This document shows, piece after piece, positions 9,251 to 31,222 of a stretch of 33,355 nucleotides of DNA. The stretch is taken from the NCBI GenBank assembly GCA_016840065.1, contig JAEOTB010000050.1, positions 1 to 33,355 of the forward strand, given 5' to 3'. The notes below the pieces were generated by a model. The model did not search any database, was not told where the DNA came from, and saw only the letters and a list, made by a program, of their open reading frames with translations. Within the stretch, counting starts at the first letter, position 1. Each line of letters begins with the position of its first letter. This DNA is from Candidatus Hermodarchaeota archaeon. Its GTDB lineage: Archaea; Asgardarchaeota; Hermodarchaeia; Hermodarchaeales; Hermodarchaeaceae. The translations under genes and the position numbers were made by a program.

Positions 9251-11917
9251 TTATCGTGTGCTTTGTATGAACGGCTTCTCTCTCTTCCTTTCAAGCTCCC
9301 ACTTTCTCCGCTCCGAACGAAGCCTGAAAAGGTCAATCTCCTTGTAGATCAGCTTCTCCTCCTTAGGTGGAATTGTACGCTCAACCTTGTCCTTTTCCGG
9401 AGAGAAGATGAAGGAGTCACCAAACTCAGCAACATTAGCGAAGAAGCAATAAGCATAGATCGTTCTCCGGGCATCAAAGTGGGCTGCCCTGAAGGCTGCT
9501 GTTACAGGAGTGAAGGCTGGATTGAAGACAAGGTCCACAGCGGGGTCCGAGTTCTTTAGCTCCACCCGCAGATCCATGTCAAGGAAATCCCGACAAATGG
9601 TGATTGCAATCCTTCCAAATTCAGTGTCCCCAATCAAGACCTTTTGTGGTGAAGCCGTAACATCTATGCCCTCAGTTATTCTTTCTCCCCCGTAGCTAAT
9701 GATGGCGGGGATGTGCTTTTCCTGCTCCCAAAGGATACCTTCTGGAGAAATCACAAGACTAAGGTTCCGCTTTGATTTCGGGTCATGGTATGACCCTGGA
9801 ATGATAAGCATCTTGTAATGTTTAGCGTAAGCCAGTAAATCCTCGTGCAACTGCTTATAGCCTAGGTCAATTGTCATTTCCGGAAAGAGCAAGATACTGA
9901 TTTGTTCTGAATAGGCTCGTGTTACCATCTCCCTGACCTTAGCTCTTACACTTTCCACTTTATCTTCTTTAATGCGAAAGAGGTCTTGGGTCTGGGGTTC
10001 ATAGTACTCGTGAAGAATATCGCCATCCTTTGAAACTCCTATCTGGGCGATGCCAACTCGGAAACGACTTCTCTCCCCACTAGAAGACCCTTTAAGCAGG
10101 TCCAAGTGAACCAGCTTGTACTTACCTTTCGGTGTTACCTCCTCTGTGGCTAGGCTTGAAACAGTTTTCTGAACCATCAACTCAAGGTAGGCATCCAATC
10201 CGATAAGGTCCACCATGTCCTGTCTGGAGGGTTTCTGCTCAATGATTCTTTCCCACTTTTGCATCTGAGAGAGCAACGCGTCTCGCTCATGTACTACTGC
10301 CTGAGCCAGCATCTGTAACCCCTTGCCCTCAGCGATGGTGTAGGCTTGCTCAAGTAGTTTCTTTGCCCGACCCATATCCAGCTCTATCAAGGCAAGCTTG
10401 GACTGAAGTAGATAGGTTTCAGCGAGAAGCGAATGAGATGATTGTTGCTCAGCAATCTTCAAGAGCCGGGTTGTCAGGCTCTTGATTTCGCTAAACAATT
10501 CCTCCTCTCCTGTCAGCTTCAGTTCAGACACTAGTAGATCACACAGGTGAATCATTGCAGTTACCTTAAGAGAGTGGTCAACAACCTCTTCCTCGACAAC
10601 TTGCTCAAGAACTTCCACTGCTTTCATCTTATGACGAGTACGTGTACTCGCCTTGAGAGATAGCGCTTGGGCAATACGATACCTATGTTTACTGGCAAGA
10701 CCCTCTGTTCTTTCACTGATTTCTTTCAGCCTTTTGAGGTGCTGTTCTGCCAGAGAACTTTCGCCAGAGTCTAGGGCTATCCATAGCAGCTCATAAACAA
10801 CAATGGCTGTGTATTGTTCATTCCCAATGTCTTCAAAAATCGCCAAGCTCTGCTGGAAATAGTCTAACGCTTCTGTCTTGGAACCTTTCTTTCTGTGAAT
10901 TCTCCCGATGTTCATTAACGTAAGAGCGGTTTTATGCCTTGTACCTAACTCTCTGTATGATGTAAGGCTCCTTTGAAAGAAGTCCAGTGCTTGGTCTAGC
11001 TCTCCTTTCAATGAGTATGCGCTGCCCATGTTGTGTAGCGCCAGTGCAAGATCCCTTTTAGATTTCTGTTCTTTGCTGATTTCCAAACTTCGCTGATAAT
11101 ACTCTAGTGCCTTATCCAGATCCCCTCTCATCTGGTGGATAACACCAATGTTTGTAAGTGAACTGGAGATGTCATGCCATATTTCCAATTCCTCTCTGAT
11201 AGCTAGACTCCGCTGATGGCACTCTAGCGCTTGGTCAAAGTCACCTATCAAGGAAAAGCAATTCCCCATGTTGTTCAGTGTTGTGGCAATGAATCTCCTG
11301 TTACCTTGCTGCTCTCTTATGGCTAGACTCCGCTGGTAATACTCTATGGCCTGATTGTAATCACCTTTCGACCAAAAAACTAGACCCAGATTGTTAAGGG
11401 CCCCTGCAACACCATACTGGTCACCTAAAGTCTCAGAGATTGCTAGGCTCTCCTGATGGTATTCAAGTGCCTGGTCAAGTTCGCCTTTGTACCAGAAAAT
11501 AACTCCTCTATGATGTGATATCTCCCCTGTTCTACGTTTTACTTCTTCTTCTAAAACCTGCTCTTTCGCAATCCCCTTGAGGAGCCCCTCACCTTCCGCT
11601 AACAATTCCAGCCCTTCACCGAGTTTTCCAGACCGCCAGGAAATTTCAGCTTTCACAATCAGGGCATCTACGACTATCAACGGGTTAGCTTCTTCTCGTG
11701 CACCCCTCAAGGTTGCTTCAACCAGCTTCAAAGCCCTCTCTGATTCTCCAAGTTTTAGCCAGAGCTGAGACTCAAGCAGCGAACACGCAAACCGATTATC
11801 CGCAGCTAATCCTTCCTGATTTACAAGCTCCTCCACTAGCTTGAGGGCGTCCTTGTAATCACCCTTTTCCAACAATATCTTCACACGAGAGAGTACTTCA
11901 CGGGCTGTTTCTGGCAA
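9251..11917 (-). CDS. TPR-nitrilase fusion protein
   Basis: An 888-residue protein. Residues 1-560 are tetratricopeptide repeats. A conserved central block (about 130-380) of 40-residue units of the type LNNLG--F-KGDYDQALEYYQRSLAI is flanked by more degenerate repeats. Residues about 620-870 are a carbon-nitrogen hydrolase (nitrilase-superfamily) domain starting FRVGIAQIG. All three catalytic residues are visible: E680 in LFPEM, K734 in QEKHIP and C775 in TICRDF. The enzyme should cleave or form an amide or nitrile C-N bond, and the TPR array is expected to bind a partner protein. No signal peptide, so cytosolic. The start is TTG at 11917 with GGAAGG upstream. It stands alone, convergent with the gene at 8243. 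Confidence 0.9.
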   Translation of the reverse strand: MPETAREVLSRVKILLEKGDYKDALKLVEELVNQEGLAADNRFACSLLESQLWLKLGESERALKLVEATLRGAREEANPLIVVDALIVKAEISWRSGKLGEGLELLAEGEGLLKGIAKEQVLEEEVKRRTGEISHHRGVIFWYKGELDQALEYHQESLAISETLGDQYGVAGALNNLGLVFWSKGDYNQAIEYYQRSLAIREQQGNRRFIATTLNNMGNCFSLIGDFDQALECHQRSLAIREELEIWHDISSSLTNIGVIHQMRGDLDKALEYYQRSLEISKEQKSKRDLALALHNMGSAYSLKGELDQALDFFQRSLTSYRELGTRHKTALTLMNIGRIHRKKGSKTEALDYFQQSLAIFEDIGNEQYTAIVVYELLWIALDSGESSLAEQHLKRLKEISERTEGLASKHRYRIAQALSLKASTRTRHKMKAVEVLEQVVEEEVVDHSLKVTAMIHLCDLLVSELKLTGEEELFSEIKSLTTRLLKIAEQQSSHSLLAETYLLQSKLALIELDMGRAKKLLEQAYTIAEGKGLQMLAQAVVHERDALLSQMQKWERIIEQKPSRQDMVDLIGLDAYLELMVQKTVSSLATEEVTPKGKYKLVHLDLLKGSSSGERSRFRVGIAQIGVSKDGDILHEYYEPQTQDLFRIKEDKVESVRAKVREMVTRAYSEQISILLFPEMTIDLGYKQLHEDLLAYAKHYKMLIIPGSYHDPKSKRNLSLVISPEGILWEQEKHIPAIISYGGERITEGIDVTASPQKVLIGDTEFGRIAITICRDFLDMDLRVELKNSDPAVDLVFNPAFTPVTAAFRAAHFDARRTIYAYCFFANVAEFGDSFIFSPEKDKVERTIPPKEEKLIYKEIDLFRLRSERRKWELERKREKPFIQSTR

Positions 11918-13320: not shown

Positions 13321-14559
13321 CTATCTTGGTCCCATTCTCCTGCGACCACGCGCCGAATCTGTTATCCTGCGGCGTCTGATTGTTTGCATAAAGCTGCCCC
13401 GCTCGTCTCGGATACTCCGACCCGTAGTAGCGAGGAATACATCATCCAGAGTTGGTTTGTGCAACTGAACAGATTCAAGTTCCACGCCAGCGCCATCCAC
13501 AATTTTTACGATTTCAGGAATCCTGTGTCCCCCGTCATCTACTAGGAGATTGAGCCGCTTGGCACCTGCCATCATCATCCCAGCAGGGCCACCCTTACCA
13601 GACATAGCTTTCTCCATCATCTCCTTCACATGCTTGGGGACTCTTCTGCCGCCACCTCCGTGACCACCACCCCCGCCCATACCACCCATTCCACCTCCTC
13701 CTCTTCCCATTCGACGCATCATCTCCATCATCCTGCCCATACCGGCACCGTTTCCACCATCTCCTGCGACTGGAATTGCGCTGCTAACCCATTCCTTTCC
13801 TTTGAAGAGTGGGTGAACCTTCATTAGGTGTGCAGGGTCCTTGAAGGCCAGGCTAACGATGTCACCTTCGAGCTGGGACTTGAGATCCTCTGGAGTGCCC
13901 ACGGCAACTAGTTTTCCGAGGTCAATAATCTGGATGCGGTTACAGAGATGGTCTGCCTCCTCAGTATAGTGGGTTGTGAGGATTATGGTTACCTTCTCTT
14001 CTTCGTTCAAGCGCTGAATGTGCTCCCAAATTGCACGTCGAGTCTGGGGGTCAAGACCTAAGGTGGGTTCATCTAGGAAAAGGACCTTTGGGTAATGAAG
14101 TAGCCCTCGGGCGATTTCTAGACGGCGTTTCATCCCACCAGAATAGGTTTTCACGAAGTCGTCTGCACGATCAGTGAGCTGGACAACTTCTAACATCTCC
14201 TTGATGCGTTCGGCACGCACCTTCCGTTTAAGACCATAGAGCCTTCCGTGGAAGTCTAGGTTTTCACGGCCGGTCAATTCGATGTCGAGTGTTGGGTCTT
14301 GGAAGACAAAACCAATGCTCCGACGGACAGCATCCGGGTTCTCCAAGATGTCGTGCCCATTCACAATAGCTGAGCCGCTCGTGGGTTTCAAGAGCGTTGA
14401 GAGCATATTGAGAGTCGTTGTCTTTCCAGCACCATTCGGTCCGAGGAAGCCAAGTAGCTCGCCCTCCTCGACCTCGAAGCTGATGCCATCCACTGCTCGG
14501 ATGTCACCGTTAAAGACCTTAGTCAGCTCATTAACTTTGATAATTGACATTTTACTCAT
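13321..14559 (-). CDS. ABC transporter ATPase (DrrA-like) with Gly/Met-rich insertion
   Basis: A 412-residue ATPase. Visible motifs are Walker A GPNGAGKTT (40-48), Q-loop Q87, signature YSGGMKRRLEIA (139-150), Walker B VLFLDEPTLGLD (159-170) and H-loop H197. These place it in the DrrA/CcmA group that pairs with ABC-2 permeases. The C-terminal regulatory domain is interrupted at about 266-333 by a low-complexity stretch dominated by Gly and Met, with a lone His in a run of glycines, before LNLLVDDGG and HKPTLDDVFL. Family members normally end near 310-330 residues, so this insertion and a basic tail (IRRRRITDSARGRRRM) account for the extra length. It is second in the operon, 10 bases after the PadR gene. 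Confidence 0.94.
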   Translation of the reverse strand: MSKMSIIKVNELTKVFNGDIRAVDGISFEVEEGELLGFLGPNGAGKTTTLNMLSTLLKPTSGSAIVNGHDILENPDAVRRSIGFVFQDPTLDIELTGRENLDFHGRLYGLKRKVRAERIKEMLEVVQLTDRADDFVKTYSGGMKRRLEIARGLLHYPKVLFLDEPTLGLDPQTRRAIWEHIQRLNEEEKVTIILTTHYTEEADHLCNRIQIIDLGKLVAVGTPEDLKSQLEGDIVSLAFKDPAHLMKVHPLFKGKEWVSSAIPVAGDGGNGAGMGRMMEMMRRMGRGGGGMGGMGGGGGHGGGGRRVPKHVKEMMEKAMSGKGGPAGMMMAGAKRLNLLVDDGGHRIPEIVKIVDGAGVELESVQLHKPTLDDVFLATTGRSIRDERGSFMQTIRRRRITDSARGRRRMGPR

Positions 14560-17386: not shown

Positions 17387-17734
17387 TTGCCATATTGTAG
17401 TGAATGTGGAGACAAGATTGGAGAAGATGGTCTCTTCTGTGATAAATGCGGTGAAGAACATACTGACCAACACCTCTGCAAGTATTGCGGATTACAAATA
17501 ACAGCCAGACGATACAAGAAACACAGAGGACTCTGTAGTCAATGCACTAGAAGAGCAACAAGCGAGATAAGATGGGTCTACCCATTTCTGGTATTTGCGG
17601 TCATTGGTCTTGTCGGCTCCATTATATGGACCTTGCTCTATCCTTCATTTTACATTCTTACTCCTCTCATGTTTGCTGTGTGTGTATTGATTCTCATTGG
17701 AGCGATTTTCATCCATAGAACACGAAGGTATTAG
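17387..17734 (+). CDS. Zinc-ribbon membrane protein
   Basis: A 115-residue protein. The N-terminus is a zinc ribbon (C4-x2-C7...C18-x2-C21). A second zinc-binding set follows directly: C31-x2-C34 and C50-x2-C53, with H46 nearby. Two membrane helices (about 64-84 and 88-108) and a short basic end (HRTRRY) complete it. The fingers should be cytosolic. The start is TTG at 17387, chosen because AGGGAG (17374-17379) ends 7 bases before it and because it gives the usual zinc-ribbon opening PYCSECG. Function unknown; such proteins are common in archaea. It follows TyrRS by 53 bases on the same strand. Confidence 0.8.
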   Translation: MPYCSECGDKIGEDGLFCDKCGEEHTDQHLCKYCGLQITARRYKKHRGLCSQCTRRATSEIRWVYPFLVFAVIGLVGSIIWTLLYPSFYILTPLMFAVCVLILIGAIFIHRTRRY

Positions 17735-19452: not shown

Positions 19453-22400
19453 TTGCCTCGCAGTGAAAAGGGATTAAAGGCTAAAACCGCAGCCCAGGCT
19501 AGAATGTTTAAGGTGTTTGCAGACAAGACATCCCAGGGCATTCTTGTTTTCCAGGAAGACAGCATTATCTACGTTAATGCGGCGTTTGCCAAGATTATCG
19601 GTTATCCTCTGCGTGAAATCCGTAACTGGCAGCCTCAAGCCCTTCTAGCCTTGACTCTAAAGGAGGAGCAGAAGATAAGTGAGGACCAATTTCTGAGGGG
19701 TCTTAAAGGCAGGGTTAAGACTCGTGTCTATGTGGCGAGGATTATCGATAAGAAGGGTAGGGTTCGCTGGATTCAATCCATTCCCAAGTCTATCAAAATA
19801 CAAAGCGAGCCAGCGATTCTAGTAACAGTCACTGATGTCTCTGAATACAAAGAGACAGAACAGGCACTGAGAGCCTCCGAAGAACGATACCGAAGATTTC
19901 TAGAGCACTTCCAAGGGATCGCCTACAGCGCAGTCTTTGAAGGACTCCCAGTCTTCTTTCACGGTGCGGTGAAAGCCATAACCGGGTACACAGAAAGGGA
20001 TTTCATATCTGGCGAAGTATCGTGGAAGGATATCGTTCACCCAGAAGACTGGATCTTAATAGAATCAGACTGGAAAAGGATAGGGTCTGTCCCTGGGTCA
20101 ACAGTCGAACGTGAGTATCGCATCATCCGCAAGGATGGGAAAATACGCTGGCTCCTTGAACTCTGCCATAATATCAGTGATGAGTCAGGTCAAGTATTTG
20201 GAGTGGAAGGCCACATCTATGACATAACGGAAAGAAAAGAGGCTGAGGAGGCCCGCCACGAATCAGAAGCTAGATATCGAACTCTGGTCGCAATCTCCCC
20301 TGATGCCATATTCCTCACAGACCTCACAGGGAAGATCCTTATAGTCAATCCCCGAACCGTTGAGTTATTTGGGTGCAAGTCAGAAGCAGATTTGCTAGGA
20401 AAACCTGCGATAGATTTCGTACTGCCCGAAGATCGACAACGAATCGTTCAAATCATGTTAAATACAGTGCAGACTAGAATAACTAGAAATATTGAGTATA
20501 CTATCCTACGCAGAGATAGCTCCACAAAACCCGTAAATGCCAGCGCATCAGTTATCACGGGACCTGACGGTCAACCCCAAGCCCTGATTGGCGTTATTCG
20601 AGACATCACCCAGCAGAAACTGGGCGAAAAGGCCTTGAGCGAATCTGAAGCCAAATACCGAGCACTAGTAGAGCAGTCCCTCCAGGGGATTATTGTTACA
20701 CAAGGCTCACCACTACGTGTAGTATATGCCAATACAGCCTTTGAAGAAATTATCGGTTACTCGCTGGAGGAATTGATTGCCCTGGAGGATAGTATTGATC
20801 AATTACTCTACCCTGCTGACAGGAAACTGGTTCTGGAACGAGCAAGGAAGCGACTGAGGGGAGAGTCAGTACCGCAGAGTTATGAGTATCGCATCATACA
20901 CAAAAGTGGAGTCGTACGCTGGGTACGAAATTATGCTAGCCCAATCGAGTATGAAGGTAAACCCGCAATCCAGTCAATAATCGCTGATATAACCGAGCGC
21001 AAGCAAGCAGAGCTGGCACTCCAGGAATCCGAGGAGAAGTACAGTAACTTATTCCAATACTTCCATGACCTAATTATACTACATGATTTGGAAGGCAACA
21101 TCCTTGATGTTAACCAGCAGGTTATAGACCAGTTGGGTTATTCTCGAGAGGAACTTCTTCAAATGAAGATAGCTGATTTGCATCCTCCCGAAGCGGTGGA
21201 GGCCTCCCATGATGCCTTTGAAACGGTTATCCGAGAGGGCTCAGTACACTTTGAGATTGATCTCTTACGGAAGACTGGTGAAGTATTCACAGCAGAAGTT
21301 TCCTCCAGCCTCTTCAATATCAGTGGACAAAAAGTAATCCAAGGAATTCTCCGAGATATAACCGAACGGAAACAAGCAGAACAGGAACTCAAGGAACGGG
21401 AGAAGCGCTATCGGGCGCTCTTTGAAAAAACAAATGATGCCGTATTCATTCTCAGCCTCGACCTAATCCATATCCAGGTAAATCAACGAGCCGCAGACCT
21501 ACTTGGATACACGATTGAAGAACTGATGGGATTGCATGTTCAAGATGTTGTTGCACTAGGAGAATATCCAGACAGCCAACGAGTGATACAAGCTCTACTG
21601 GCTGGAGACCATGTGCCCGTGTATGAGCGATTATTCCGAAGAAAAGATGGCACCGTATTCCCAGTAGAAATAAACGCAGCATTAGTAACTGATGCTGAAG
21701 GCAATCCTCTCCACTTTCAAAGCGTGGTCCGAGACATTACTGAACGAAAACGAGCAGAGCAGGCGTTGTTGGAGAGTGAGCACAGGTTCAGAGGAATCGC
21801 GGAAAACATGGATGACGCGTTAATCATCCGCGAAGAAGGAGAAGTGGTCTACGTCAATGACCGGGCTTGTGAAATCTTCGGTTATCCTCGAGAAGAACTA
21901 ATGACCATGTCAACCAAGGATCTCTGTGCTCCAGAAGAGCGAAGCAGATTCCAAGCCTTCATTGAAGAACTACAGCACAGAGGTGGGGGATTTGCCGAAC
22001 TCGAGCTGCGAGTGCTTCACAAGGACGGATCAAACAGGTTTCTCCACTATCGGTTCTGGGTACGGAGGGACTATGGAAAAGTCATTCACTTCATTATAGC
22101 CAATGATATCACTCAACGCAAGCTCGCCGAGCAAGCATTACAGGAATCTGAGTTGAAGTATCGATCCCTGGTTGACAAGTCCATCCAAGGCATTATACTC
22201 CTGCAAGATATTCCTCCACGAATTGTTTTTGCCAATCCAGAAGGAGCTAGGATATTAGGATACAAACCAGAAGAGCTAGAATCCCTTTCAAAAAGTGATA
22301 TCGAGAACCTCTTCCACCCAGATGCCCGGGAAATAATCTTCCAACGAGCAAGAGAAATTCTCGAAGGGTCTATCGAAACTACACACATCTCCTATGGTCC

Positions 22401-22950
22401 CCGCGAAGTTCGGATGTTCCACCGGGACAAAACCCAACACTGGGTAGAGCTATTCGCACGGCGCATTGAATATCAAGAAGAACCCGCAGTACAGGTGATG
22501 GCCATTGAAATCACTGAACGAAAGGAGGCAGAGCTAGCCTTGAAGGCATCAGAGGAGAAGTTCCGCGCCCTAGTTGAGGAGCTAGATGACTGGGTCTTCG
22601 AAATGGATGCTCAGGGTACCCTCACCTATTCGAACAATTCGGTTGAGAACCTCCTTGGCTACTCGGTGGGACAGGTAATCGGACTCAATCCACTGGACTT
22701 CCTTCACCCTGACGATGCAAAAGCCACCAAGCAGCTATTCAACGAAATGGTAAGAAACAAACAGCGAATACGAAACCTGACCGCCCGTTATCTTCACCGC
22801 GATGGATCCGTCGTCATTCTGGAAGCTGTGGGACACCCAATACTCGACGACAAAGGGGAACTCCTCGGTTACCGAGGAATCTACCGAGACCTAACAGAAC
22901 GTCTACAAATACTAGACCAACTACGACAATACGCAACCGAAGAACCATAA
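19453..22950 (+). CDS. Nine-PAS-domain signalling protein without an output domain
   Basis: A 1165-residue soluble protein composed of nine consecutive PAS domains. They begin near residues 20, 143, 272, 399, 527, 650, 777, 900 and 1034. Most show a VN/AN-----LGY---EL core and end in a PAC segment with D-ITERK-AE-AL-ESE-KYR, the helical linker into the next. Domains one, four and eight share a QGI opening and may be closer duplicates. The C-terminus stops just after the ninth PAS (RDLTERLQILDQLRQYATEEP). There is no H-box, HATPase, GGDEF, receiver or membrane helix. It probably senses small ligands or redox state and acts through partner proteins. The start is TTG at 19453 with AGGTG upstream; the first in-frame ATG is 17 codons later. 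Confidence 0.92.
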   Translation: MPRSEKGLKAKTAAQARMFKVFADKTSQGILVFQEDSIIYVNAAFAKIIGYPLREIRNWQPQALLALTLKEEQKISEDQFLRGLKGRVKTRVYVARIIDKKGRVRWIQSIPKSIKIQSEPAILVTVTDVSEYKETEQALRASEERYRRFLEHFQGIAYSAVFEGLPVFFHGAVKAITGYTERDFISGEVSWKDIVHPEDWILIESDWKRIGSVPGSTVEREYRIIRKDGKIRWLLELCHNISDESGQVFGVEGHIYDITERKEAEEARHESEARYRTLVAISPDAIFLTDLTGKILIVNPRTVELFGCKSEADLLGKPAIDFVLPEDRQRIVQIMLNTVQTRITRNIEYTILRRDSSTKPVNASASVITGPDGQPQALIGVIRDITQQKLGEKALSESEAKYRALVEQSLQGIIVTQGSPLRVVYANTAFEEIIGYSLEELIALEDSIDQLLYPADRKLVLERARKRLRGESVPQSYEYRIIHKSGVVRWVRNYASPIEYEGKPAIQSIIADITERKQAELALQESEEKYSNLFQYFHDLIILHDLEGNILDVNQQVIDQLGYSREELLQMKIADLHPPEAVEASHDAFETVIREGSVHFEIDLLRKTGEVFTAEVSSSLFNISGQKVIQGILRDITERKQAEQELKEREKRYRALFEKTNDAVFILSLDLIHIQVNQRAADLLGYTIEELMGLHVQDVVALGEYPDSQRVIQALLAGDHVPVYERLFRRKDGTVFPVEINAALVTDAEGNPLHFQSVVRDITERKRAEQALLESEHRFRGIAENMDDALIIREEGEVVYVNDRACEIFGYPREELMTMSTKDLCAPEERSRFQAFIEELQHRGGGFAELELRVLHKDGSNRFLHYRFWVRRDYGKVIHFIIANDITQRKLAEQALQESELKYRSLVDKSIQGIILLQDIPPRIVFANPEGARILGYKPEELESLSKSDIENLFHPDAREIIFQRAREILEGSIETTHISYGPREVRMFHRDKTQHWVELFARRIEYQEEPAVQVMAIEITERKEAELALKASEEKFRALVEELDDWVFEMDAQGTLTYSNNSVENLLGYSVGQVIGLNPLDFLHPDDAKATKQLFNEMVRNKQRIRNLTARYLHRDGSVVILEAVGHPILDDKGELLGYRGIYRDLTERLQILDQLRQYATEEP

Positions 22951-23179: not shown

Positions 23180-25612
23180 ATGGTCAAGATTGTATGCTGG
23201 AAGTCACGACATACTCATTTGATTTTTCTAATAGGGTTGCTATTCATAATAATAGCACCTAGGAGTACTCCTTTACTCACCTATTCCAATTCCTCTCATG
23301 TTTCCACCATGGCACAAGACTGTGATTCTGCAGTCACTCAGAGTAGTATTTCTCGGGGATTTCCTTACAAATCTTTGGTTCCAGTTCCTGGTAGCCATGC
23401 CCCTATATGGAGTCAGCTCTACGGTGGCTTCGAAGAAGATGATTGTAATGATGTTATAGCACTTAGCGGCGGGGGTTATGCTCTAATCGGGTACACCGAT
23501 ATCAGTCCTGCTCCCTACACGGACATATACATTCTAGGTACCGATGGGAATGGTAACCAGCTATGGAGCAATACATTTGGAGGGGTCTACGATGATAAAG
23601 GAATATCTGGGGCAGAATGCTCCACGGGTGGCCTGATTATCAGTGGGTACATTCAAGATACAATGAGTTATTCTGAATCTGATATCATACTAATCCGTAC
23701 AAGCAACACAGGGACTCACCTCTGGAATAAGACCTTTGGGGGTGTCAATGAAGAAAAAGTTGGGGCAGTAATAGAGTGTTCAGGAGGAGGCTTCATCCTT
23801 GTGGGCGATACTACAAGTTTTGGTGCAGGATCATGTGATGTTTGGCTGATTCGTACTGATGCTAGTGGGAACCTCCTATGGGATGTTACCTTCGGCGGCT
23901 ATTATGAAGACAGAGGCTATGATATCGTTGAGTGCTCAGACGGAGGGTTTGCCGTCCTGGGGTATACTTACAGTTCTAGTACAAGATCGTATGACCTTTG
24001 GTTAATCCGTACTGATGCTTCAGGAAACCTTCTTTGGAGTAAAACATACGGCAGCGATCGTTTCGAAACTAGCAGGGGGCTAGTAGAGTGTGCTGGTGGG
24101 GGCTTTGCAATAACAGGTACGAAATACACAGCTTCCAGTAGTGGTGACATTTGGTTGCTGCGTACTGATGCCACAGGTAATCTCCTTTGGGACGAGTTCT
24201 ATGGTGGTTCAGATTGGGAAAACAGCGACGACCTCATCGAATGTAGTGATGGAGGCTTTGCCATCACAGGCGAGACTAGAAGCTACGGTTCAGGGGGGCT
24301 GGATTTATGGGTGATTCGCACAAACAACTTGGGCGAATGCTTATGGACAAAAAGCTACGGTGGGGTATCTAGCGACTATTCAGGAGGAATAGTTGAGGTA
24401 GGTGCAGGCGGGTTTGTCGTAGCTGGTGGATATACCACCCTCAGCACCTCTGATAGGGATGTGTGGTTACTACATATTCCCGATCCTTTCATGTGGTGGG
24501 GAGAAACAACAGGGGACAAAATTGTAGAAGTCGGTGCGGGCATCTGGTTTGAACTAGTAGCAAAAGCCCGCTTGGGCATTGACAGGTGGTGGATAAACGA
24601 CACGGTGAAATTCAACCTTTCAGCTGGTGTGATAACGAATGCATCGGTACTCTCACTTGGTAATCATGGTGTCCAGGTATGGGTCAACGACTCGGTCGAT
24701 AATAGATTGAACAAAAACATCACTTTCACGGTTGAACCTCAGGCACCGCCCACCTGGGTTGAGGTGCCTACGAATCAGGTTGTTGAATTAGGCACCCCGT
24801 TCATCTACAATTTAAACGCAACAGACCGTACCGGAATAGATGCTTGGTGGTTAACCAATACTATACCTTTTAGAATAAATGAAGAGGGAATAATCTCCAA
24901 TGACACATTCCTTGCACTCGGAGAATATGATTTGCAGATTTGGGTGAACGACACCTTTGGAAACACTATCTCAGCCTCCTTCCAAGTACAGGTTGTTGAT
25001 CAAACAGCACCGGTCTGGGTGGAAACGCCCCAGGACTTATACTGTGAGTTGGGCTACCCTTTCTATTGCGATTTAGATGCCAAGGATTTGAGTGGAATTG
25101 ACACCTGGTCGATAGATGACACCACCAGATTCACCATCAGCCCATTAGGAACGATTACAAATATCACCTTTTTACCAGTTGGAGACTATCCGATATTTGT
25201 CTGGGTTAATGATACGCTTGGCAATACGCTAAACGCCTACTTCAAAGTCACTGTAAATGACAATGTAGGACCAATCTTTTTGAATACCCAACCTGCCTTG
25301 ATTGGAACTCCTGACCTGTTTGTTTATCAGTTGGAAGCCTACGATTTATCTGGTGTGGGTGGGTGGGGTGTGAGTGACACTACTAATTTTGATATCACAG
25401 AGTCTGGACTGCTCTCCAACCGTCGGACCCTAAATCCAGGCACATACAATCTTACAGTCTATGTTTATGACATCCATGGTAATTCCAAGAGTAAACTGAT
25501 TCAAATTACTATTACTGGCTTGGGTTCGATGATGTTCACAATTATCATCATGGCTGCTCTGGTTATTGTATTAGTAGTCGGTGGTACCTATGCCGCTACC
25601 CGCCGCTTCTGA
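23180..25612 (+). CDS. Propeller and Ig/cadherin-like repeat surface protein, paralog A
   Basis: An 810-residue protein. After a hydrophobic signal segment (about 10-32), residues 78-435 hold seven repeats of about 50 residues. Each has a T-F/Y-GG strand, an E-C-GGGF---G strand and an S--DVWLIRTD-SGN-LW strand; seven copies fit a seven-bladed propeller. Residues 437-775 are four Ig/cadherin-like domains with an ELG-PF-Y-L-A-D-SGID-WW opening and a G-Y---VWVND--GN end. One membrane helix (about 783-805) and a very short ATRRF tail follow. The bulk should be extracellular, for adhesion or ligand binding. It is clearly homologous throughout to the next gene but lacks that gene's cytoplasmic finger domain. 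Confidence 0.9.
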   Translation: MVKIVCWKSRHTHLIFLIGLLFIIIAPRSTPLLTYSNSSHVSTMAQDCDSAVTQSSISRGFPYKSLVPVPGSHAPIWSQLYGGFEEDDCNDVIALSGGGYALIGYTDISPAPYTDIYILGTDGNGNQLWSNTFGGVYDDKGISGAECSTGGLIISGYIQDTMSYSESDIILIRTSNTGTHLWNKTFGGVNEEKVGAVIECSGGGFILVGDTTSFGAGSCDVWLIRTDASGNLLWDVTFGGYYEDRGYDIVECSDGGFAVLGYTYSSSTRSYDLWLIRTDASGNLLWSKTYGSDRFETSRGLVECAGGGFAITGTKYTASSSGDIWLLRTDATGNLLWDEFYGGSDWENSDDLIECSDGGFAITGETRSYGSGGLDLWVIRTNNLGECLWTKSYGGVSSDYSGGIVEVGAGGFVVAGGYTTLSTSDRDVWLLHIPDPFMWWGETTGDKIVEVGAGIWFELVAKARLGIDRWWINDTVKFNLSAGVITNASVLSLGNHGVQVWVNDSVDNRLNKNITFTVEPQAPPTWVEVPTNQVVELGTPFIYNLNATDRTGIDAWWLTNTIPFRINEEGIISNDTFLALGEYDLQIWVNDTFGNTISASFQVQVVDQTAPVWVETPQDLYCELGYPFYCDLDAKDLSGIDTWSIDDTTRFTISPLGTITNITFLPVGDYPIFVWVNDTLGNTLNAYFKVTVNDNVGPIFLNTQPALIGTPDLFVYQLEAYDLSGVGGWGVSDTTNFDITESGLLSNRRTLNPGTYNLTVYVYDIHGNSKSKLIQITITGLGSMMFTIIIMAALVIVLVVGGTYAATRRF

Positions 25613-25697: not shown

Positions 25698-28487
25698 ATG
25701 GTTTCAATGATAGCTTGCCGAGAAGCCCGATATAATAGGTTCCTTCTTCTGATAGTATTGGCGTGTCTTGTAACACCGAATGGTGCTTTCAACATCAAGC
25801 CCTCAATTAATTTCAGAGTTTCCTCAGGAGATATTGATAGTACATCAGCGGGTTTACTTACCTCTGTTACTTCCCTGGAACCCCCTCCCACTTTTTCTCC
25901 TCCTGTTCCTGGTGCCGCCTTAAATCCCATCTGGAGTAAAATTCATGCCGGGAAATATTACCCATATAGCAGTACTGACCATGGTTCGGATTTAGTTGAG
26001 TTGAGTGGGGGAGGGTACGCCCTCATCGGAACCACCACTGGACCTAGTGGTGAAGAAAATGTTTGGGTTATAGGAACTGATGAGAACGGTACAGAATTAT
26101 GGAATAGTAGCCTTGGAGGTCCCTACATAGATAAGGGAATGGCTGGGGTGGAATGCTCTACTGGCGGCTTAATCATCGGGGGATACACACAGGGAATCGT
26201 TGACGACGACTTAGATTTTTGGATGATACTCACGGACGCAACAGGAAATCCTCTCTGGTCCAAGACCTTTGGCGGCACCGATGACGATTTTGCTAAATCA
26301 GTCATAGAGTGTTCTGGCGGAGGCTTTGCTATCGTTGGCAACACTTGGAGTTTTGGTGCAGGGTCATGGGATGTCTGGCTGATTCGGACAGATAGTTCGG
26401 GGAATCATTTGTGGAATGTTACATTCGGCGGCGCTAGCGGGGACTACGGATATGATATCGTGGAGTGTTCTGGCGGAGGCTTTGCTATACTGGCGTCCAC
26501 CAGTAGTTTTGGTGCAGGAGTTTATGATGTGTGGTTGATTCGTACTGATGCTTCAGGTAATCACCTATGGGATGTTACTTATGGTGGAACTGGATCTGAA
26601 TCTGGCAGTGGGCTAGTTGAGTGTGCGGGCGGTGGCTTCGCCATCATCGGGTATACAGGCCCTAGTTTTAGTGGACGTGATTTCTGGTTACTACGCACCG
26701 ATACTTCAGGAACACTCCTCTGGGACAAGACCTTCGGCGGCTCAGAAATCGATGTCGGTAGCGACATCGCCGAGTGTGCGGGCGGTGGCTTTGTCTTAAG
26801 TGGTACGACTAAAAGCTTTGGTAATGGTGATTACGATATTTGGGTGGTACGCACAGATGGACTAGGTGAAGGTCTGTGGACCCAAGCATACGGTAGCCCT
26901 AGACGAGACGAGTCCGGTGGAATCGTCGAATGTAGTGAGGGGGGCTTCACGGTCATTGGTTCGCTTGCGGATTCCGTGGGTAGGTTAGATGTATGGTTAT
27001 TCCGGATTCCTGATCCTGAAATCTGTTGGTATGTAACACCCGAGGACAAGATTGTAGAGTATGGTGCTAACTTCGAGTATGAACTACGAGCATCATCTCT
27101 ACAGGGTATTGACCAATGGTGGATGAATGATACTACAGGTTTTAACCTCAATCCCGAAGGGTTCCACACCAATACTTCTGTAGGTGTGCTAACTAATGCC
27201 TCCACGCTTTCAGTCGGTGACTACGGGTTACAGGTCTTTGTGAACGACACCGCTGATAACCGGATAAACGCGAACATCACGATTAACATTGAATCCCAGG
27301 CGCCCCCCACTTGGGTGGAGGCACCTACGAACCAAGTAGTCGAATTAGGTTCATCCTTCTATTACTACCTGGACGCCACCGACCGGTCGGGAATCGATTC
27401 CTGGTGGCTCACTAGCGGCGGGCCTTTCACCATCAGTTCACATGGGGACATCACCAACACGGGCGCCTTATCCCTAGCAGTGTACAACATAGAAGTGTGG
27501 GTAAATGACTCACTCGGTAATGCCTTATCCGCTACTTTCCAAGTTCAGGTAGTGGATACAACTGCACCAAGTATATCCTGGTTGCCTATTGACATAAACC
27601 ATGAGCTGGGCGACCCGTTCAATTACTACGTGAGTGCCTATGACCGGAGTGGTATTGATTCATGGTGGATAGATGACACGACTCACTTCACCATCAATGA
27701 TAATGGCAAGATTACCAACGTCACCTTCTTGCCGATCGGTGAATATCTTATCAGGGTTTGGGTCAACGATACCCAAGGAAACACCCAGAATGACAAAATC
27801 GCCCTCACAGTTGTTGACACCATAGCACCAACCATCCTAAATACTCCGGCTATAATACACGGATATCCTGAATCCGTTTCTTACCAATTTGAAGCGTACG
27901 ATCTATCAGGAGTTTCTGGTTGGGGTGTAAGTGATACCACTAATTTCAGAATCTCTTCTTCAGGGCTGCTAACCAACCATAGGGTCTTGAACCAAGGTAG
28001 ATACGATTTAACAGTTTATGTATCCGATGCTCGTGGAAATGTTCAACACCTAAATGTCCGGATTGATATTTTTCCCAGCCAGAGTACGTCATTTGTCGGA
28101 GGTCTAGTAATGGTAGGATTAGTCTCTCTATTTGTACTCGGTTGCTGTTTTCTGATTATTCGCGTTTTCAGAAACAGACCATCAGTCTCTGAAGTCCAAG
28201 AGGAGGAACCCGATTCTATCGCTCACACTCGTCGTGAACGCCCTACTCGCTACAACTGCCGAAAATGTGGAGCCCAAATCACGGGCGACAAGGCGACCTG
28301 CCAGAAGTGCGGGGCCAAGCAGAGGCAGTGTACCGTGTGCCAAGGCTTCATTGAGCATAAGGAACAGTATCTCCAGTGTCCCCACTGCAAGCAACTAGCT
28401 CACAAAAGACACTTGCTTGAATGGCTAAAGGTCAAAGGTCAGTGCCCCTATTGCAGACGAAAGCTACGGCGCAAAGATGTGGTCTAG
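25698..28487 (+). CDS. Propeller/Ig-like surface protein with cytoplasmic zinc-ribbon and RING/PHD-like tail, paralog B
   Basis: A 929-residue protein. The ectodomain matches paralog A: signal segment (about 10-30), seven propeller repeats (78-437), four Ig/cadherin-like domains (about 445-790) and one membrane helix (about 798-822). Unlike A, it continues into the cytosol for about 105 residues. An acidic linker (EVQEEEPDS) is followed by a zinc ribbon (C854-x2-C857...C868-x2-C871) and then an eight-ligand finger: C878-x2-C881-x12-C894-x2-C897-x4-H902-x2-H905-x10-C916-x2-C919. The HLLEWLK-KGQCPYCRRKL stretch is RING-H2-like, while the spacing is also PHD-like. This suggests a receptor that recruits a partner, possibly a ubiquitin-type E2. 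No E1 or E2 gene is in the window, so that is inference. Confidence 0.9.
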   Translation: MVSMIACREARYNRFLLLIVLACLVTPNGAFNIKPSINFRVSSGDIDSTSAGLLTSVTSLEPPPTFSPPVPGAALNPIWSKIHAGKYYPYSSTDHGSDLVELSGGGYALIGTTTGPSGEENVWVIGTDENGTELWNSSLGGPYIDKGMAGVECSTGGLIIGGYTQGIVDDDLDFWMILTDATGNPLWSKTFGGTDDDFAKSVIECSGGGFAIVGNTWSFGAGSWDVWLIRTDSSGNHLWNVTFGGASGDYGYDIVECSGGGFAILASTSSFGAGVYDVWLIRTDASGNHLWDVTYGGTGSESGSGLVECAGGGFAIIGYTGPSFSGRDFWLLRTDTSGTLLWDKTFGGSEIDVGSDIAECAGGGFVLSGTTKSFGNGDYDIWVVRTDGLGEGLWTQAYGSPRRDESGGIVECSEGGFTVIGSLADSVGRLDVWLFRIPDPEICWYVTPEDKIVEYGANFEYELRASSLQGIDQWWMNDTTGFNLNPEGFHTNTSVGVLTNASTLSVGDYGLQVFVNDTADNRINANITINIESQAPPTWVEAPTNQVVELGSSFYYYLDATDRSGIDSWWLTSGGPFTISSHGDITNTGALSLAVYNIEVWVNDSLGNALSATFQVQVVDTTAPSISWLPIDINHELGDPFNYYVSAYDRSGIDSWWIDDTTHFTINDNGKITNVTFLPIGEYLIRVWVNDTQGNTQNDKIALTVVDTIAPTILNTPAIIHGYPESVSYQFEAYDLSGVSGWGVSDTTNFRISSSGLLTNHRVLNQGRYDLTVYVSDARGNVQHLNVRIDIFPSQSTSFVGGLVMVGLVSLFVLGCCFLIIRVFRNRPSVSEVQEEEPDSIAHTRRERPTRYNCRKCGAQITGDKATCQKCGAKQRQCTVCQGFIEHKEQYLQCPHCKQLAHKRHLLEWLKVKGQCPYCRRKLRRKDVV

Positions 28488-29640: not shown

Positions 29641-30459
29641 CTAGTCCATCCATTTCACATGACCCATTTCTATTAGTTTTCGGAGTGGCTCTGGTATGCG
29701 GTCTGCTTTCTGTAGGTGTGACGATGCCCACACTTCCACGTCTTCATCCATCCACAGAATGGAGAGGCGTGGGCAGGAGAAGATGGGGGATATATCCACA
29801 CATTCCAGTTGATTCTTGTTGAAGGTCAGGGTTTCCAGCTTGGGGCAGTGTTGCAGCGGGGTAAGGTCGAGGGATTCTAGCTGATTACTCCCTACTCCTA
29901 GACCTCCTAGCTCCGCGCATTGTTTGAGGGGAGTTAGGTCGATCTGCTGCAAAAGGTTCACGGCAAGCCCGATACTCCTGAGCTTAGGGCATTGTTGGAG
30001 GGGTGTGAGGTTGACCTGACTTAGTCTATTCCCATTAAGACCCAAACTAGTGAAGCTTTTACAGTGGCTGAGGGGGGTGAGGTCGATGCGTTCTAACTGG
30101 TTGCCACCAAATTCAAGTTCTACCAGCTGGGAGCAGTCACTGAGAGGGGTGAGGTCCAAATGCTCGAGCCGGTTGCTACCCAACCCCAGCTCTTCCAAGT
30201 TGGCGCAGTGGCGGAGAGGGATGAGGTCCAGGTGTAGCAACTGGTTCCTATCCAGCCTGAGCTCACGCAAGTTAGCATGGTGTTGGAGAGGGGTGAGGTC
30301 GATGGAGGCAATGCTCCTATTCAAGAGGTGGATAGTAGATTCATCGGTGCTAACTTCGAATTTCTCTTGTTCGCCTTTATCGGTTGTGTACTGAAGGGTT
30401 ATCTTACTCAATCTGTGAATCCTCCAAAAAGGATGAATGTTACAATGACTAGTGGCCAT
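29641..30459 (-). CDS. Leucine-rich repeat protein
   Basis: A 272-residue soluble protein. A short N-terminal region (1-50) leads into eight LRR units of 24 residues (about 50-240) with the pattern (I/L/V)-D-L-T-P-L--C--L--L-L--N-L. A cysteine recurs at the ninth position in most units, forming a ladder, as in Cys-containing LRRs. The last unit is degenerate and a helical cap (about 245-272, RKLIEMGHVKWMD) closes the solenoid. It should be a protein-binding scaffold, with no enzymatic motif. Its ATG overlaps the stop codon of the HEAT-repeat gene by 11 bases, so the two are very likely translated together and may act together. Confidence 0.9.
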   Translation of the reverse strand: MATSHCNIHPFWRIHRLSKITLQYTTDKGEQEKFEVSTDESTIHLLNRSIASIDLTPLQHHANLRELRLDRNQLLHLDLIPLRHCANLEELGLGSNRLEHLDLTPLSDCSQLVELEFGGNQLERIDLTPLSHCKSFTSLGLNGNRLSQVNLTPLQQCPKLRSIGLAVNLLQQIDLTPLKQCAELGGLGVGSNQLESLDLTPLQHCPKLETLTFNKNQLECVDISPIFSCPRLSILWMDEDVEVWASSHLQKADRIPEPLRKLIEMGHVKWMD

Positions 30460-31222
30460 TAGTTTGAATTATCTTAAGTGTCTTCTGTGCCCTAGCAAGA
30501 ACTTCTTTCCCGATGACAAGGGTGCCCCTGTCCTCAGGGTATTTGACTTGATGTCTTTCCAAGGCTTCTTTGAGCTTGGGGATGGCGTGACGAATGCGTT
30601 CTGGGAAGTGAACGGTACGTTCTGTAACACCGCACAAGATTCCGAGCCCAATCCGTACGGTATGTTCTAGGCGTGTTTCTTGTGCGGCTCGAAGGAGGAG
30701 GTCAAAGGCGGTGAAGTCGCCGATGTAGGCGAGAGCGTGGATCACGCTTCTGGCAAGTTCTGTGTGCTGTCTCGTGGTGAAGTAGTATTCGAGGATGGTG
30801 GTGAGGAACGGGAGGGCGCAGCTTTCTTGGAGGAAGGCGAGGGCTCGAATGTAGAGAGCTTGTGGACTCGCATCGAGGCTTTCCTCATGGGCATCGATGA
30901 GTGGCAGGTGGGGAAGCTTTGGGTATTCCCTGATGACGAGTTGGGCGGCATCCAATGATTTGCCCATGTGTCTGAGGGCGTCTGCCGTGTTCAAGATGAA
31001 GGAACGGTAAGTGTGATCCATTAACAGCTGGGTTAGCAGCTCATAGGCTTGCTGTCCACCGATTTCACCGATTTCTTGGATAACCTCATTTAACTTCCAT
31101 CTGTCCTGGGGGGCAACGCCTAAAGGGAGCACACCGTATTTGGCGGGAAGCATGTCGAGAACCTCCCGTAATCTAGCCAGCTTGGCCTCTGAAGGCTCCT
31201 CTGCACCGTTCTTCTCGCTCAT
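30449..31222 (-). CDS. HEAT-like repeat protein
   Basis: A 257-residue soluble helical protein. Paired helices resembling HEAT/Armadillo units are visible: LNEVIQEIGEIGGQQAYELLTQLLMD (about 44-69), FILNTADALRHMGKSLDAAQLVIREY (about 75-100), ALAFLQESCALPFLTTILEYYFT (about 127-150) and VIHALAYIGDFTAFDLLLRAA (about 162-182). A charged end (about 210-250) follows. The A-L--IG-----A---L pattern is the basis of the call, and individual repeats are diverged. The role is presumably protein binding. It is first in a two-gene operon with the LRR protein, whose start lies inside its last codons. ATG at 31222. Confidence 0.82.
   Translation of the reverse strand: MSEKNGAEEPSEAKLARLREVLDMLPAKYGVLPLGVAPQDRWKLNEVIQEIGEIGGQQAYELLTQLLMDHTYRSFILNTADALRHMGKSLDAAQLVIREYPKLPHLPLIDAHEESLDASPQALYIRALAFLQESCALPFLTTILEYYFTTRQHTELARSVIHALAYIGDFTAFDLLLRAAQETRLEHTVRIGLGILCGVTERTVHFPERIRHAIPKLKEALERHQVKYPEDRGTLVIGKEVLARAQKTLKIIQTNGH

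Follow-up and report, generated by a model that had tools for sequence, protein, structure and literature searches.

The window, that is, the entire 33,355-nucleotide stretch of Candidatus Hermodarchaeota DNA analyzed here, carries on its forward strand an open reading frame (25698-28487) that starts with ATG and encodes a product of 929 amino acids. The predicted protein, a putative receptor referred to below simply as the receptor, combines a large repeat ectodomain with a membrane helix and a tail containing a zinc ribbon and a RING finger, and directly upstream lies the gene for a paralogue without these tail modules. The relevant features are the following.

23180..25612, + strand: tandem paralogue of 810 aa without ribbon or RING (alignment)
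25698..28487, + strand: 929-aa predicted type-I membrane protein with signal peptide, propeller, cadherin/Ig-like repeats, membrane helix, zinc ribbon and RING (ORF, translation, domain matches)
25698..25796, + strand: hydrophobic, signal peptide-like N-terminus, residues 1-33 (hydropathy peak at residues 15-33)
25920..27017, + strand: seven-repeat propeller-type ectodomain, approximately residues 75-440, with E-C-S/A-G-G-G-F motifs (sequence repeats, low-confidence AF2 model, Foldseek)
27018..28082, + strand: tandem cadherin/Ig-like domains, approximately residues 441-795 (weak Pfam and Foldseek matches)
28104..28160, + strand: single membrane helix, residues 803-821 (hydropathy 2.93; AF2 helix 797-825)
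28257..28310, + strand: predicted cytoplasmic zinc ribbon, C854-x2-C857-x10-C868-x2-C871 (ligands; Pfam DZR/Zn_Ribbon_1 just under the cut-off)
28329..28457, + strand: RING finger, C878 to C919, with the E2-contact counterparts V880, W909 and R920 (sequence, profiles, AF2, Foldseek)

The repeat ectodomain, single membrane helix, zinc ribbon and eight-ligand finger spanning C878 to C919 had all been recognized in a preliminary description made without database searches, and this part held in full, coordinates included. The hydropathy profile contains only one internal membrane helix, which is directly followed by basic residues, and the 15-residue flanks of the helix carry a net charge of 0 on the outer and +2 on the inner side. 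From sequence alone, the receptor is predicted to be a type I membrane protein with its tail in the cytoplasm. The ectodomain contains 11 N-glycosylation sequons, at most a mild excess over the shuffle mean of 7.2, and the tail contains none.

The propeller part of the ectodomain consists of seven repeats of about 52 residues, each with about four strands in the low-confidence secondary structure of the AF2 model. Pfam searches yielded only weak matches to Big_13, Cadherin and Y_Y_Y; the top Foldseek matches for the propeller were CylK and the PLL2 lectin, and cadherin ectodomains were also returned. Because the full-length AF2 model, built from just two sequences, is poor (pLDDT 50), these fold matches are merely suggestive. 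The upstream paralogue is 53% identical to the receptor across the ectodomain and membrane helix, and the ectodomain family is common in this genome (34 matching stretches), mostly without the finger. Given this tail-less neighbor and the mostly finger-free family, the RING is a module that is present on some surface proteins and absent from others.

The eight ligands of the finger (C878, C881, C894, C897, H902, H905, C916 and C919) form a C4H2C2 set, in contrast to the canonical C3H2C3. A Pfam search with the tail alone produced a match to zf-RING_2 (PF13639) with E=6.9e-6 and a score of 26.7, just below the curated cut-off of 27.3; the same family is matched by 21 of 23 fingers from this genome. 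When the tail was compared to PDB sequences with phmmer, RING E3s ranked first (Arkadia RING at 1e-4), and a profile of 28 relatives retrieved RNF126 (6e-7) and RNF24 (1.4e-6), then Arkadia and synoviolin, as well as the RINGs of RNF13 and ZNRF3. An AF2 model of the tail, based on an alignment of the window sequence with relatives from a GTDB scan, reached a mean pLDDT of 84, with 88-94 in the RING blocks. In Foldseek searches, this model superposed on the TRIM37 RING at 0.9-2.1 A over 54 columns and on the RING of RNF165, in complex with E2~Ub, at 1.1 A over 47 columns; the Rad18 RING likewise superposes at about 1 A (47-54 columns). By superposition on known RINGs, then, the finger is predicted to adopt the RING fold, although the zinc geometry was not measured. 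The matches to zf-RING_2, Arkadia and RNF126, together with 34-35 matching places in the genome, show that the finger is not a chance resemblance.

Several other identities for the finger were considered, and the PHD, RINGv/MARCH and plain double-ribbon readings were rejected. A PHD finger would be expected to show C4HC3 ligands, an aromatic residue two positions before the seventh ligand and a Pfam PHD match; no PHD family matched the tail at E<=1, the ligand spacing is wrong, and the residues preceding C916 are V-K-G-Q. The RINGv/MARCH type (C4HC3 with a C-x-C third pair) is not supported, given the absence of a Pfam RINGv match to the tail at E<=1, the C-x2-C pair of the finger and H905 in the place of a cysteine. 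A plain double zinc ribbon is contradicted by the RING fold match. Prok-RING (PF14446) gives a weak partial profile match, below the cut-off, in which the first zinc half alone aligns. The remaining weak Pfam matches of the tail are to ribbon types (DZR, Zn_ribbon), zf-RING_16 and an IFT zinc ribbon. Thus, of the original designation "RING/PHD-like", the RING part held, on the evidence of both the profiles and the fold model, which lies at about 1 A from real RINGs, and the PHD part failed.

The preliminary description had also proposed looking for E1, E2 and ubiquitin genes in the same genome. All three were found, along with genes for a small RING, an ESCRT set and two JAMM proteins. Most of these genes form a cluster on contig C69 that comprises ThiF (E1), UQ_con (E2), ubiquitin ending in GG, zf-RING_2, Vps23_core, VPS28, EAP30, Vps4 and Snf7, all scoring above the Pfam cut-offs; the JAMM proteins are encoded away from the cluster, and the receptor gene resides on another contig, C25. 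The presence of this full ubiquitin-ESCRT cluster (L044:7543-16457) in an apparent Hermodarchaeota genome sits awkwardly with a sentence in PMC10936438 stating that Hermodarchaeia are without any diversified ESCRT forms.

The small RING of the cluster, which scores 27.9 against zf-RING_2 and so passes the cut-off of that family, shares approximately 45% identity with the receptor finger over 51 residues (E 6.6e-11); the two fingers are paralogues. The small RING of Caldiarchaeum is an E3 in vitro that requires I30, W58 and R69, and its authors point out an extra cysteine (C3B) in the ligand set (PMC5654768). In the receptor finger, the counterparts of these three residues are V880, W909 and R920, with a spacing of 11 from the tryptophan to the arginine in both proteins; this correspondence was assigned without direct alignment to the Caldiarchaeum sequence. 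The complete E2-contact set of the receptor finger comprises V880 (hydrophobic, between C1 and C2), W909, P917 (the proline after C7) and R920 (the basic linchpin after C8). The co-encoded E2 aligns with Ubc4/UbcH5, including the catalytic cysteine, and its loops 4 and 7 carry the matching PY and PS motifs, respectively, that PMC5654768 names. Among described proteins, the archaeal small RING finger protein (srfp) of Caldiarchaeum and Asgards (PMC5654768) shares with the receptor finger the extra cysteine in the second zinc pair and the counterparts of I30, W58 and R69. Unlike srfp, which is short and soluble, has a single domain and is encoded beside E1, E2 and ubiquitin, the receptor is a 929-aa membrane protein that adds an extracellular part and a zinc ribbon to the finger, and its gene is remote from the cluster.

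The phyletic distribution of the finger closely follows that of the conjugation machinery. Of 39 relatives, 30 have finger, E2 and ubiquitin together, and the other 9 have none of the three. In the larger set of 196 Asgard genomes, 135 possess both finger and E2, 56 neither, 4 the finger only and 1 the E2 only (Fisher 5e-43, without correction for phylogeny). The co-occurrence is driven in part by the cluster RING itself; nevertheless, extra finger copies do not persist without E2, save in the 4 genomes with the finger only; three of these are incomplete (69-76%).

Within the 2.6-Mb genome, we read about 26 of the 34-35 finger-bearing ORFs. Apart from the receptor, propeller/cadherin membrane proteins with a finger are found at L033 and L034; other membrane forms carry an Ig stack (L035) or different ectodomains (L032, L042), and short forms consist of little besides the membrane segment and finger (L033, L043, L045, L047). 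The finger is also attached to HEAT proteins (L032, L039, L041) and LRR proteins (L037, L040), occurs in double-finger forms (L048) and is represented by the cluster RING (L044). In the window itself, the stretch 29641-31222 encodes one LRR and one HEAT-like protein, identified by eye; both lack the finger, although proteins of these types carry it elsewhere in the genome. At L043, L045 and L048, short membrane RING genes form side-by-side tandem arrays, with double-finger forms among them. The hydrophobic residue, the tryptophan and the proline are retained in most paralogues and the basic linchpin in about two thirds; because some paralogues have Q or H at the linchpin position and three lack the tryptophan, not all copies need be ligases.

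In the GTDB scan, the nearest named relatives of the finger come from Hermodarchaeota, followed by Frey-, Jord-, Sif-, Sigyn-, Hel- and Heimdallarchaeota. The propeller-helix-ribbon-RING order recurs in sister genomes (L120, L123; partially in L125), and this recurrence, together with the 34-35 genomic copies, contradicts a one-off fusion or an assembly accident. Short cluster RINGs adjoin ubiquitin, E2 and E1 in Hel-, Sigyn-, Frey- and Jordarchaeia loci (L099, L104-L107). Inspection by eye reveals other fusions in Asgards, namely TPR-like (Heimdall, L089-L096, L130), substrate-binding-protein-like (L129) and winged-helix-like; at L129:741-3119, in another Asgard genome, an oligopeptide substrate-binding-like protein continues into a membrane helix, ribbon and RING. 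Well-supported branches in a tree of the finger (61 rows, 53 columns) force at least 3 changes of the membrane-anchored label, but with so few columns the tree cannot resolve where the finger originated. In Heimdallarchaeota (L089, L091, L095, L096, L103), a membrane TPR-like/ribbon/RING protein of about 1006 aa is encoded 1.4-3 kb from a gene of the EAP30 family (ESCRT-II type), within a conserved gene order. This proximity hints at a possible link to ESCRT but does not prove it.

Taken together, these observations make it likely that the protein is an RING-type E3 with type-I membrane topology, which would bring E2~ubiquitin to the membrane on its cytoplasmic side. The analysis demonstrates the predicted fold and topology, the ligands and contact residues, the kinship, the co-encoded E1/E2/ubiquitin/ESCRT genes and the co-occurrence, whereas ligase activity, ligand and substrate are all inferred. 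The preliminary proposal that it could be a surface receptor signalling through a ubiquitin-like or other protein-recruiting finger is supported, with receptor function, like the activity, still an inference. According to this model, the exported ectodomain would bind something outside the cell, and the single helix is predicted to anchor the receptor so that the ribbon and RING reside in the cytoplasm. By transfer of function from the Caldiarchaeum RING, V880 and W909 would dock the one clear conjugating E2 of the genome and R920 would serve as the linchpin closing E2~ubiquitin. Ubiquitin might then be transferred to the receptor, to its partners in the membrane or to cytoplasmic proteins close by, after which the co-encoded ESCRT-I/II/III proteins or the degradation machinery would read the mark. 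Asgard ESCRT-I binds ubiquitin (PMC9192718), and feeding into ESCRT sorting is a possibility, with the coupling inferred. The finger is one member of an expanded family in which the same RING is grafted onto many binding modules.

In eukaryotes, Goliath and other PA-TM-RING proteins, RNF13 and ZNRF3 are built from a signal peptide, a luminal or outer domain, one helix and a cytosolic RING-H2-like finger. From its sequence, the receptor is predicted to have the same order of parts as such transmembrane RING E3s, but it differs from PA-TM-RING (Goliath) in having a propeller and a cadherin/Ig stack instead of the PA domain, for which no Pfam match was detected in the receptor, in the extra zinc ribbon and in the C4H2C2 ligand set. 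The best fold match for the whole tail is found elsewhere, in the C-terminal tails of GATOR2 (WDR24/WDR59/MIOS) and IFT-A proteins, which share the two-part ribbon plus RING; unlike the receptor, these proteins are cytosolic WD40/alpha-solenoid scaffolds without a membrane helix.

The E3 assignment can be challenged on several grounds: there are no activity data, the ligands are C4H2C2 rather than C3H2C3, the zf-RING_2 score falls short of the cut-off, and GATOR2 and IFT-A rank first on the whole tail. The principal rival explanation is that ribbon and RING constitute an assembly module in the manner of GATOR2 and IFT-A that holds membrane proteins in complexes without any ligase function. This is backed by the whole-tail Foldseek ranking (IFT-A TMq 0.64-0.68 over 80 columns), by the weak zf-RING_16 and IFT zinc-ribbon matches and by the loss of the linchpin or tryptophan from some paralogues. 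However, the receptor copy keeps all three E2-contact residues, its finger is paralogous to the ubiquitin-cluster RING, and the finger family is nearly absent from Asgards without E2; we consider the assembly module unlikely. Less probable still is that the protein binds E2~Ub mainly to ubiquitinate itself for its own turnover by ESCRT or the proteasome, with a structural or adhesive ectodomain that is no signal sensor. The tandem paralogue, which shares the ectodomain but has no such tail, and the mostly finger-free ectodomain family favor this possibility, and nothing speaks directly against it; it is compatible with the membrane E3 model. An ordinary zinc-ribbon tail that binds nucleic acid or protein without any tie to ubiquitin can claim DZR and Zn_ribbon matches of similar strength but is made very unlikely by the RING fold at about 1 A, the top sequence rank of RING E3s, the E2-contact residues, the kinship with the cluster RING and the co-occurrence with E2.

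Earlier work portrays the ubiquitin systems of archaea as compact, each cluster having a single small RING, and assigns the multiplication of E3s to the evolution of eukaryotes (PMC5654768); these systems have also been called single-domain, and homologues of human E3 domains were not found in archaea (PMC11354881). The open-access literature searched yielded no account of archaeal RINGs that are transmembrane or belong to an expanded multidomain set; because subscription papers and preprints were mostly outside this search, priority is uncertain. Within these limits, the small-RING type was already known, and what seems new are the transmembrane and multidomain versions and their expansion: one Asgard genome has about 35 fingers, joined to surface modules as well as to HEAT and LRR proteins, and other Asgard families show similar expansions. 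A bolder reading, which could just as well prove wrong as right, is that Asgards, the group closest to the ancestor of eukaryotic cells, already had a large modular repertoire of RING E3s, many of them transmembrane receptors, marking membrane proteins with ubiquitin for ESCRT-dependent sorting. If so, receptor-coupled ubiquitination and E3 diversification would predate eukaryotes. Should the fingers be ligases, they would supply the layer of substrate recognition that has been missing, as well as a route, open to testing, from binding at the cell surface through ubiquitin to ESCRT in the lineage closest to eukaryotes.

Several other genes in the window deserve mention. At 9251-11917, a TPR array is joined to a nitrilase-like domain, and at 19453-22950 a 1165-aa protein consists almost entirely of PAS repeats, without an evident kinase domain (both judged by eye). 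An ABC ATPase (13321-14559) has a long Gly/Met-rich insert that precedes its C-terminal part, and a small membrane protein (17387-17734) contains an N-terminal double zinc ribbon that matches Pfam DZR below the cut-off.
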